DNA from: Aurantiacibacter gangjinensis
GTDB lineage: Bacteria > Pseudomonadota > Alphaproteobacteria > Sphingomonadales > Sphingomonadaceae
Assembly (NCBI RefSeq): GCF_001886695.1
Contig: NZ_CP018097.1
Location: 1,879,001 to 1,943,000, forward strand
Reading direction: 5' to 3'
DNA: 64,000 bases
The notes beneath the pieces are model-generated. The model was not told the DNA's origin, did not search any database, and saw nothing but the letters and a program-made list of their open reading frames with translations. A program made the position numbers and the translations under genes. Shown here piece after piece: positions 37,513 to 40,965 of the stretch; position 1 is the stretch's first letter, and every line of letters begins with the position of its first letter.

Positions 37513-38898
37513 ATGGCACTCGATATCCTAGTCGTCGACGATGAACGCGACATTCGCGATCTGGTTGCCGGCGTGCTGAGCGACGAGGGCTATGAATGCC
37601 GCACCGCGGGCGACAGCGAGAGCGCGCTCTCCATGGTGGATGAGCGTCGGCCCAGCCTCGTCCTGCTGGACGTGTGGCTGCACGGCAGCAAGATGGACGG
37701 GCTGGAAGTGCTTGACGCGATCAAGCAGCGCGAGCCGAACCTGCCGGTCATCATTTTTTCCGGCCATGGGAATGTCGATACGGCAGTGTCGGCCGTCAGT
37801 CGGGGTGCGATGGACTTTATAGAGAAGCCCTTCGAAGCCGAGAAGCTGCTGCACCTTGTGGAGCGCGCTACCGAAACGGAACGCCTACGCCGCGAGAACG
37901 AGCGGCTGCGCGAAGGCATGGCGGCGCCGGACGAATTCACCGGCAATTCCAGCGTCATCAATAATGTGCGCGCGACGCTGAAGCGTGTGTCCAACACAGG
38001 TAGCCGCGTGCTGATCAGCGGGCCGGCAGGAGCGGGCAAGGAAGTGGCAGCGCGCCTCCTCCACGCATGGAGCCCGCGAGCGGACAAGGCGTTCGTGTCG
38101 GTTAATTCGGCGCGCATCACGCCAGAGCGTTTCGAGAACGAGCTGTTCGGCGAAGAGGCCGACGGCAAGCTGCTGCGCCCCGGCCTGCTGGAGCTGGCCG
38201 ATGGCGGCACGCTCTATCTCGATGAGATTGCCGACATGCCCGAAAGCACACAGGCGCGTATCCTGCGCGTGCTGACCGATCAGAGTTTCGTGCGTGTGGG
38301 CGGCAATAGGCAAGTGGGCGTGGATGTGCGCGTCGTGTCGTCCACAGCGCGGGACTTATTGGCAGAAATTGAGGAAAAGCGTTTCCGCGAAGACCTGTTC
38401 TACCGGCTGAATGTCGTGCCCATCGAAATCCCGCCGCTGGGCGAACGTCGCGACGATATTCCCGCGCTCGCCGAGCATTTCTTCACGCGTTACGCGCGCG
38501 AGCAGGGGCTGGAGCCGCCTTCGGTCACGCCCGAAGCCATCGCCGCGCTGCAGGCCTATGACTGGCCGGGCAATGTCCGCCAGCTGCGCAATGTCATCGA
38601 GCGGACGGTCATTCTCGCCCCGCGCGAAGATTTTGCGACGATCACGCCGGAGATGCTGCCATCGGAAATTACCGGCGGATCGGAAGATAACGGCGGGGGC
38701 ATCTCTACCTTGATGGGCGTGCCGCTGCGCGAGGCGCGCGAAAGTTTCGAGCGTGAATATCTGCGCATCCAGATCCGGCGCTTTTCCGGCAATATTTCCA
38801 AGACAGCCGGTTTCATCGGCATGGAACGTTCTGCCTTGCATCGGAAGCTAAAGCTTCTTGGCATGAACGACCGCAACAGCGGCGACGATAAAGACTAG
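37513..38898 (+). CDS. ntrX: Response regulator NtrX lacking the GAFTGA motif
   Basis: Product of 461 residues: receiver domain with Asp53 (LVLLDVWLHGSK), an AAA+ domain with an altered Walker A (ISGPAGAGKEVAARLL) and Walker B GGTLYLDEIADMP, and a Fis-like C-terminal HTH (SKTAGFIGMERSALHRKLKLLG). Where NtrC has GAFTGA, this protein reads LFGEEADGKLLRPGLLELA, so canonical sigma-54 activation is not expected; NtrX proteins are known for this and act on sigma-70 promoters. The ATG follows GGAGAG, 22 bp after ntrY. Confidence 0.94.
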   Translation: MALDILVVDDERDIRDLVAGVLSDEGYECRTAGDSESALSMVDERRPSLVLLDVWLHGSKMDGLEVLDAIKQREPNLPVIIFSGHGNVDTAVSAVSRGAMDFIEKPFEAEKLLHLVERATETERLRRENERLREGMAAPDEFTGNSSVINNVRATLKRVSNTGSRVLISGPAGAGKEVAARLLHAWSPRADKAFVSVNSARITPERFENELFGEEADGKLLRPGLLELADGGTLYLDEIADMPESTQARILRVLTDQSFVRVGGNRQVGVDVRVVSSTARDLLAEIEEKRFREDLFYRLNVVPIEIPPLGERRDDIPALAEHFFTRYAREQGLEPPSVTPEAIAALQAYDWPGNVRQLRNVIERTVILAPREDFATITPEMLPSEITGGSEDNGGGISTLMGVPLREARESFEREYLRIQIRRFSGNISKTAGFIGMERSALHRKLKLLGMNDRNSGDDKD

Positions 38899-39067: not shown

Positions 39068-39643
39068 ATGACCAAGGGCACCCTTTCTGCCCGTCCGCGC
39101 CCCGAACAGGAACCGGAGACTGCTACAAAACCACCCGCGAAGAATGGGAAGGCTGCCAATCTGCAGGACGTCTTCCTTAATTTCCTGCGTCGCGAGAAAA
39201 TTCCTGTCACGATGTTCCTCGTGAAGGGCGTGAAACTACAGGGCATTGTGACCTGGTTCGACAATTTCTCCATCCTGCTGCGCCGCGATGGCCAGTCGCA
39301 GCTTGTTTACAAGCATGCGATCAGCACGATCATGCCCGGGCAGCCGGTGGATGTGGAAGAATTCGGCAGAGGTCCCGATGGCTCGAAGAAAATGCGCTTG
39401 TTGCAGGACATTTTCCTTACCAGTGTGCGCGATGCCGGGGTGCAGGTGACCATGTTCCTGGTGAACGGCGTGATGCTGCAAGGCCGCATTGCCAGCTATG
39501 ACCTGTTCTGCATGCTGCTGGAGCGCGATGGCTTCGTTCAGCTCGCCTACAAGCATGCCGTCTCGACCATCCAGCCCGAGAAGCCGGTCGATCTGTCGGG
39601 CGATATCGACATGGACGATGACGATGAAGGCGACGACGGCTGA
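39068..39643 (+). CDS. hfq: Tandem two-domain RNA chaperone Hfq
   Basis: RNA-binding chaperone for sRNA-mRNA pairing. The 191-residue protein holds two complete Sm/Hfq domains with an exact 80-residue offset: domain 1 about 32-92 ([24 protein letters not shown]) and domain 2 about 112-172 ([24 protein letters not shown]), plus an acidic tail ([11 protein letters not shown]). Normal Hfq has one domain of about 75 residues and forms hexamers, so this form would make a pseudo-hexamer from three chains. Domain 1 keeps the rim arginines (Arg41, Arg42) and the distal-face lysine (Lys56). Domain 2 has Asp122 and Met136 there, while the proximal-site Gln and Lys-His are kept in both. Confidence 0.95.
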
Positions 39644-40965
39644 TTTTCGAGGATGACAGTATTGAAGGCGAGGTAACGCGCGGTGCGCGAGCCCTCGTCG
39701 TGTGCCCGGACATTCGCGGCCAGCGGCGTGACGAAGATCCCGAAGCACGGCTTGAAGAAGCAAAAGGCCTCGCGCTCGCTATCGGCATCGTGGTCGCGCA
39801 TAGCTTTGTGCTGCCCGTTCGGGAGGTAAAGCCCAACACGCTTTTCGGGGAAGGGCAGGTACAGCGCATCGCCACCGATTGCGAATTGCACGAGGCGGAA
39901 TTGGTGATCGTGGATGGCGCGCTTTCGCCCATCCAGCAGCGCAATCTGGAAGAGAAGATCGGCCGCAAGGTGATCGACCGGACCGGGCTGATCCTCGAGA
40001 TTTTCGGCGAGCGCGCGGCAACGGCTGAAGGCCGGTTGCAGGTGGAGCTGGCGCATCTCGATTACCAGCAGAGCCGCCTTGTGCGCAGCTGGACCCACCT
40101 TGAGCGGCAGCGCGGTGGCTTCGGCTTCCTCGGCGGCCCGGGCGAAACGCAGATCGAGGCGGACCGCCGCATGATCCGCGACCGCATGGGCAGGCTGCGC
40201 CGGGAGCTGGAGCAGGTGCGCAAGACCCGTGAATTGCATCGCAAACGCCGGGGAAGGGCGCCTTGGCCGGTGATCGCGCTTGTCGGTTACACAAATGCTG
40301 GCAAGTCTACGCTATTCAACCGTTTGACCGGCGCTGACGTGATGGCGGAAGACCTGCTCTTTGCCACGCTCGACCCGACCATGCGCGCTATCACGCTGCC
40401 CGGTGTCGAAAAGGCGATCCTGTCCGACACGGTGGGTTTCATCTCCGACCTCCCGACCCAGCTTGTTGCCGCATTCCGCGCCACGCTGGAGGAAGTGACG
40501 GCGGCCGATATCGTGCTGCATGTGCGCGATATTGCCAATCCCGACAATGCGGCGCAGAAGAAGCAGGTGCTCAATATCCTGCAAGACCTCGGCGTCGTCG
40601 ACGAGACCGGCCAAGCACAGGATGCGGTGCTGCTGGAAGTCTGGAACAAGTGGGATAAGCTGTCTGCCGAGCAGGCAGAGGCACTGGCCGAAATTGCCGA
40701 CCAGCAGGACGATGTAATCCGCATGTCCGCGCAGACCGGGGAAGGCATCGACGCCCTTGGCGAGAAGCTAGGCAAAGTCCTGACGAGCGGCGCGCGCACT
40801 CTGTCGCTCACCATTTCGGCGAGCGACGGCGCGCGGATCGCGTGGTTGCACCAGCATGGCGAAGTGCTGGCGGACGAGGATGGCGGCGAGGGCGAGGATG
40901 GCCCCATGCGCCAGATCGAGGTTCGCCTTACCGAAAAGGAACTGGGCCGCTTCGAGGCGCTCTAA
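39640..40965 (+). CDS. hflX: Ribosome-rescue GTPase HflX
   Basis: GTPase that splits stalled or heat-damaged ribosomes. Family motifs: [28 protein letters not shown], Walker [36 protein letters not shown] and NKWDK. The first ATG or GTG-type start (GTG 39700) would cut off sequence that looks like the HflX N-terminus ([19 protein letters not shown]), and the frame is open back to a CTG at 39640 lying in a CTGA overlap with the hfq stop, with AAGGCG about 11 nt upstream. I therefore place the start at 39640 (441 residues); GTG 39700 (421 residues) is the conservative alternative. The hfq-hflX order is conserved in Proteobacteria. Confidence 0.9.

Follow-up and report, generated by a model that had tools for sequence, protein, structure and literature searches.

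Unequal, conserved halves in the tandem-domain Hfq of sphingomonads

Hfq assembles into rings and assists regulatory RNAs in reaching their targets. Within the 64,000 nucleotides of the Aurantiacibacter gangjinensis genome analysed here (contig NZ_CP018097.1, positions 1,879,001 to 1,943,000; hereafter, the window), the hfq gene encodes a single chain with two Hfq/Sm domains, D1 and D2, which raises the question of whether both halves expose the same RNA-binding surfaces and of what kind of ring such chains would form. The gene, its neighbours and its domains are the following:

37513..38898, forward strand: ntrX, sigma-54 response regulator, upstream neighbour of hfq (Pfam)
39068..39643, forward strand: hfq, tandem-domain RNA chaperone Hfq, 191 amino acids plus stop (open reading frame, Pfam and NCBIfam matches)
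39161..39349, forward strand: D1, first Hfq/Sm domain, residues 32-94 (best Pfam stretch)
39350..39400, forward strand: interdomain linker, residues 95-111 (position between D1 and D2)
39401..39589, forward strand: D2, second Hfq/Sm domain, residues 112-174 (second PF17209 match, 80 residues past the first)
39700..40965, forward strand: hflX, GTPase, downstream neighbour of hfq (Pfam; start codon uncertain)

A profile search of the genome, which consists of two contigs totalling 2.72 Mb and is rated 100% complete, found a single hfq gene and no second one to share its work, and the gene of the window is the sole, housekeeping Hfq of this sphingomonad, whose closest named relative is Aurantiacibacter zhengii (86%). 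The order ntrX-hfq-hflX is collinear in 101 of the 102 loci that have all three genes, the remaining one not being collinear.

A two-domain chain of known architecture

The presence of two Sm domains in one chain, claimed by the initial annotation, is borne out by two models. PF17209, the Pfam model for Hfq, matches two stretches of the protein above its cut-off (E 5.8e-56), and the NCBIfam model NF010691, also above cut-off, covers residues 21-185 in one stretch, through its positions 12-176 of 176. As the latter is more than twice as long as the 79- and 61-position NCBIfam Hfq models, its length suggests that NF010691 (PRK14091) describes two-domain Hfq proteins, to which the window protein adds an N-terminal extension. 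The alleged exact 80-residue repeat between the halves holds for the register, which is ungapped and exact, and not for the sequence, since D1 and D2 agree at 38 of 71 residues and at 130 of 213 bases. No DNA repeat was found, which together with this degree of identity indicates that the duplication is old. A sequencing artefact or a frameshift was discarded as the origin of the tandem, given that the frame is open and that 82 further loci present the same architecture. In these tandem loci the linker spans 17-22 amino acids (82 of 83; 13 in the other, with small edge differences in counting) and its net charge is about zero.

Structure prediction gives a similar picture. The AlphaFold model of the core (residues 28-176, 75 rows) contains two Sm folds with a pLDDT of 90.4 and a pTM of 0.85, the five models spanning pLDDT values from 90.4 to 33.9, and the full-length model reaches 49.1. 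The best PDB match of the core model is to the Hfq chains of Caulobacter crescentus (6gwk), the closest solved structure by both sequence and fold, which has a short acidic C-terminal tip like that of the window protein but, unlike it, consists of a single domain and forms a homohexamer with K31 and a basic rim in every unit. Among the PDB chains with a sequence match, the longest has 114 residues, so that none of them is a two-domain Hfq. The Hfq of Escherichia coli, with a single domain and a longer C-terminal tail than the window protein, provides through its proximal, distal and rim sites the reference numbering used below.

The tandem architecture is itself known, and the window gene is a member of it, with two domains per chain and shared descent from one duplication. 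As the initial annotation stated, it had been noted in some sphingomonads: Yang et al. (2010) described two Sm-like domains in Hfq of Zymomonas mobilis and six other Sphingomonadales (PMC2877685), the Z. mobilis protein (ZMO0347) carrying them in one chain and in the same order as in the window. Functional work, of which the initial annotation was not aware, does exist: Z. mobilis hfq mutants show inhibitor sensitivity (PMC2877685). The authors of that study already raised the question of whether three proteins suffice for an Hfq ring, and the available portions of the paper contain no analysis of differences between the halves. The two domains are not treated either in the available portions of later Z. 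mobilis papers (PMC9797736, PMC7546472). Furthermore, an Hfq-dependent sRNA has been reported in Sphingopyxis granuli (PMC6563040), and two hfq-like copies receive a passing remark in N. aromaticivorans (PMC3474761). A search of the open-licence literature found no work on separate Hfq halves or their division of labour and no dedicated paper on the duplicated Novosphingobium Hfq, nor a description of the conserved asymmetry and of the N-terminal motif presented below.

Origin and distribution of the tandem

In a sample of the family, Hfq was detected in 194 of 199 genomes, 26 of them with one match and 168 with two, the latter figure counting matches that are not all confirmed as one reading frame. 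The loci analysed, 119 usable ones plus the window, comprise 83 with a tandem and 37 with a single-domain Hfq; of the 37, 17 belong to family members and 20 to genomes outside it. Those 17 loci correspond to 16 genomes, one being represented twice by two identical loci. In this genome (G007), which counts among those with two matches, the loci (L146 and L174) sit near opposite ends of a contig of 2.88 Mb, at distances of about 50 kb and 21 kb, which is probably an assembly overlap; no HflX was found in the stretches taken around them.

No tandem was found among the 83 non-family genomes of an order sample (77 with a match) or the 145 of a phylum sample (92 with a match), and within a class sample (285 non-family genomes, 233 with a match) no stop-free tandem appears among the best 150 rows listed. 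Horizontal spread of the tandem was rejected, given the lack of tandem matches in the order and phylum samples and in the listed matches of the class. As a separate observation, a single-domain hfq of alphaproteobacterial type is located at 1567-1821 of L277, an AT-rich contig filed as viral (IMGVR_UViG_3300043777_000338).

The history of the tandem was followed on quick trees whose only support measure is SH-aLRT, with HflX chosen as the independent marker. On the HflX tree (118 rows: 83 tandem, 15 family singles and 20 from outside) the tandem loci form one clade with a support of 98, the tandem state requires one change and no loss occurs within the sample, and the NtrX tree (104 rows, 80 tandem) also groups the tandem loci in one clade (support 96). 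In a tree of the domains themselves, built on few columns, D2 forms one clade (99) and so does D1, weakly supported (72). Mean identity between D1 and D2 within a protein is 54.6%, lower than the mean pairwise values of 79.5% among D1 domains and 69.5% among D2 domains; this, together with the grouping of each half in its own clade, argues for one duplication without later homogenisation. These comparisons point to one ancient head-to-tail duplication inside hfq, within the family and later than the divergence of the single-domain genera. That the family singles arose through secondary loss of D2 is not supported, since all 17 loci have the ancestral N28, K31 and M63 and the 15 included in the HflX tree branch apart from the tandem clade.

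Unequal surfaces in the two halves

The elements in which the halves differ, together with the two termini, are located as follows (residues of the window protein):

39068..39148, forward strand: N-terminal extension, residues 1-27, present with its motif in 43/43 loci of the HflX clade of the window
39080..39094, forward strand: motif T5-L6-S7-A8-R9, amino acids conserved and synonymous codons variable across 43 loci
39188..39199, forward strand: basic lateral rim of D1, R41-R42-E43-K44 (E. coli 16-19), charge +3 or +4 in 83/83
39224..39235, forward strand: distal K53-G-V-K56 of D1 (E. coli 28-31), K28 gained (83/83) and K31 kept (82/83)
39428..39439, forward strand: rim of D2, R121-D122-A123-G124, basic patch lost, charge -1 in the window
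39464..39475, forward strand: distal N133-G-V-M136 of D2 (E. coli 28-31), with M in place of K31; N28 and M31 each in 83/83
39590..39640, forward strand: acidic C-terminal tail, residues 175-191, last 12 residues with a net charge of -8 in the window

The proximal site is the surface that both halves share. Q8, K56 and H57 occur in both halves of all 83 tandem loci, and F42 in each half of 82 of them; the window protein has the equivalents of all four in D1 and D2, including the glutamine (Q33 and Q113) and the lysine-histidine pair (K82-H83 and K162-H163) that the initial annotation had recognised. This is relevant for an arrangement in which six chains would each contribute one domain to the ring, with the other domain left outside. 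Such an arrangement is compatible with the sequence, but the complete Sm core and the proximal pore residues are retained in D1 and D2 alike, and since the pore of a spare domain should tend to disappear, this retention makes a ring of six chains very improbable.

On the distal face, position 28 is a lysine in D1 of every tandem locus (83/83) and an asparagine in D2 and in all 37 single-domain Hfqs. Position 31 shows the opposite pattern, with the lysine kept in D1 in 82 of 83 loci (arginine in the other) and replaced by methionine in D2, where Q63 is also found in 83/83 (Q169 in the window; methionine in the single-domain Hfqs). M31 and Q63 thus set D2 apart from all 37 singles, and among another 26 single-domain Hfqs from the class, positions 28 and 31 are N and K in 25 cases and S and K in one. 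The full combination, K28 and K31 in D1 with N28 and M31 in D2, is present in 82 of the 83 loci of the family and in all 80 named loci, two sets that overlap. The locus with R31 in D1 (L168, from G077) also has a short, degraded D2 with a domain score of 45.5, the D2 of its congeners L169 and L170 scoring at least 90.

The codons for K28 and N28 vary synonymously, as expected under selection on the protein, and on the HflX tree ten D2 columns (25, 26, 28, 29, 30, 31, 32, 34, 52 and 61) have no changes and column 33 has one. Taken together with the gain of K28 in D1, these unchanged columns give the impression of a distal face that was rebuilt rather than decayed. The initial annotation was thus right about the missing distal lysine of D2 (K56 against M136), and the idea that this site is merely weakened is contradicted by its unchanged contact columns, by M31 and by the lysine gained in D1. 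In terms of RNA binding, K31 contacts RNA through its backbone in solved complexes, and N28 does so in simulations (PMC6422490, PMC8121710); as the base-reading residues of the A- and R-sites are intact in D2, the exchange of side chains may matter little. Nevertheless, in E. coli Hfq the substitution K31A leads to nearly 4-fold fewer RNA chimeras, and R16A, in the rim, to about 100-fold fewer (preprint PMC12262471), so that both altered sites matter when all six are changed.

It has also been considered that K28, M31 and Q63, together with the replacements of W38 by A and of N41 by L, mainly enforce the alternation of D1 and D2, the asymmetry towards RNA being a by-product. In favour of this, positions 37, 38, 41, 43 and 63 are fixed or nearly so and fall outside the RNA-contact residues named in the available portions of the literature. 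However, positions 28 and 31 are part of the distal face and the differences in the rim are outside the interface, and this explanation is regarded as possible, although doubtful.

The lateral rim is variable in D2. An arginine-rich rim speeds annealing, and a basic rim in each unit is a typical trait of proteobacterial Hfq, although it is not a requirement of the PF17209 family. When rim charge is taken as the sum over positions 16-19 plus the one that follows L46, D1 has +3 or +4 in all 83 tandem loci and single-domain Hfqs have +4 in 36 of 37 (+3 in the other), whereas D2 ranges from -3 to +4, with a mean of -0.23. Parsimony on the HflX tree gives 0, 0, 15, 3 and 0 changes in D1 at columns 13, 16, 17, 19 and 39, those at 17 and 19 being K/R exchanges, against 41, 25, 31, 38 and 18 in D2. 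In the window a basic rim is found in D1 and not in D2, the halves differing additionally at K44/G124, N38/T118 and R72/E152. The arginine pair reported as lost in D2 is only half lost, since R41-R42 of D1 corresponds to R121-D122 and R121 is kept. A weakened D2 rim, as initially proposed, is a complete trait in the HflX clade of the window, where the charge is zero or negative in 43/43 loci and the residue after L46 is a glutamate in 43/43 (10/40 in the other tandem loci). It does not extend to 11 of the 83 D2 domains, which have +3 or +4, either retained or regained, so that rings with three rims would not be general. These 11 all belong to one HflX subclade of 13 loci, which includes L084, L092, L093, L094, L095, L098, L106, L109, L126, L134 and L142; the other 70 tandem loci have no fully basic (+3 or +4) D2 rim.

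This variability could result from a neutral ratchet, in which the fusion locks the units together and redundancy frees the D2 rim, giving rise to an asymmetry without a function of its own. The wide variation of the D2 rim columns, the 11 basic rims and the faster divergence of D2 with respect to D1 (69.5 against 79.5 in mean pairwise identity) fit this explanation. Yet M31, N28 and Q63 of D2 and K28 of D1 are fixed across the tree, and in the clade of the window the rim glutamate, V51 and A54 of D2 are each found in 43/43 loci, while a new residue is not expected to become fixed by free decay. Such fixation could stem from packing within the ring instead of binding to RNA, but a purely neutral origin seems unlikely. 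The global picture, as far as sequences can tell, is that the D2 rim appears to have been released and the D2 distal face to be under constraint in an altered form, and the existence of unequal, conserved halves is supported by the 83 tandem loci.

The termini add a further element. The pattern TL[ST]xR, drawn up after inspection of the sequences, occurs in the N-terminal extension of 43/43 loci of the window's clade, 0/40 of the other tandem loci and 0/37 of the single-domain ones. T5, L6, A8 and R9 are invariant (33 rows), and the codons of the motif vary synonymously, with six leucine codons, for instance, among the 43 loci. The motif and the fixed glutamate of the D2 rim occur together in one clade, which amounts to a single event and makes a link between them a lead only. 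Regarding the C-terminal tail, its last 12 residues have a median net charge of -5 in the 83 tandem loci and in the family singles and -4 in the outgroup singles, with one tandem locus at +1. The acidic tip of C. crescentus Hfq lies against positively charged residues of the rim, in competition with RNA (PMC6561178).

A candidate ring and its meaning

The reading preferred here, with a probability of roughly 0.65, is that three chains together build a single ring of six units in which D1 and D2 alternate. All six proximal sites would be retained for U-rich RNA ends, and the annealing rim would come from D1 only, mostly giving three annealing sites per ring instead of six. Each chain would contribute one acidic tip, three per ring, so that the ratio of tips to rims would stay at 1:1, and the C-terminal tip would probably reach the rim of D1 in the adjacent chain. 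With the distal lysines redistributed, K28 and K31 in D1 against N28 and M31 in D2, A-rich RNA would meet a distal face of alternating charge. We infer the trimer, the order of the ring, the contact of the tip and the consequences for RNA from the residues described above. A further elaboration of this alternating ring, put forward tentatively and thought unlikely, is a three-fold, two-faced ring in which D1 alone would anneal, D2 would act as a distal and proximal binder with an acidic rim and, in the window's clade, the TL[ST]xR arm would be regulatory, either docking on the acidic D2 rim or recruiting a partner.

In a homohexamer any mutation hits all six sites, which makes it hard to ask how many of them are needed. 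The unit of the sphingomonad ring offers two sites that can be changed independently, with a natural outcome across dozens of genera, in which the two proximal sites are preserved, a single rim is enough and a fixed rearrangement of charge is tolerated on the distal face. The clade-specific N-terminal motif, in turn, hints at a contact of Hfq that has yet to be described. The number and order of the sites on an Hfq ring are thereby directly testable with one gene.
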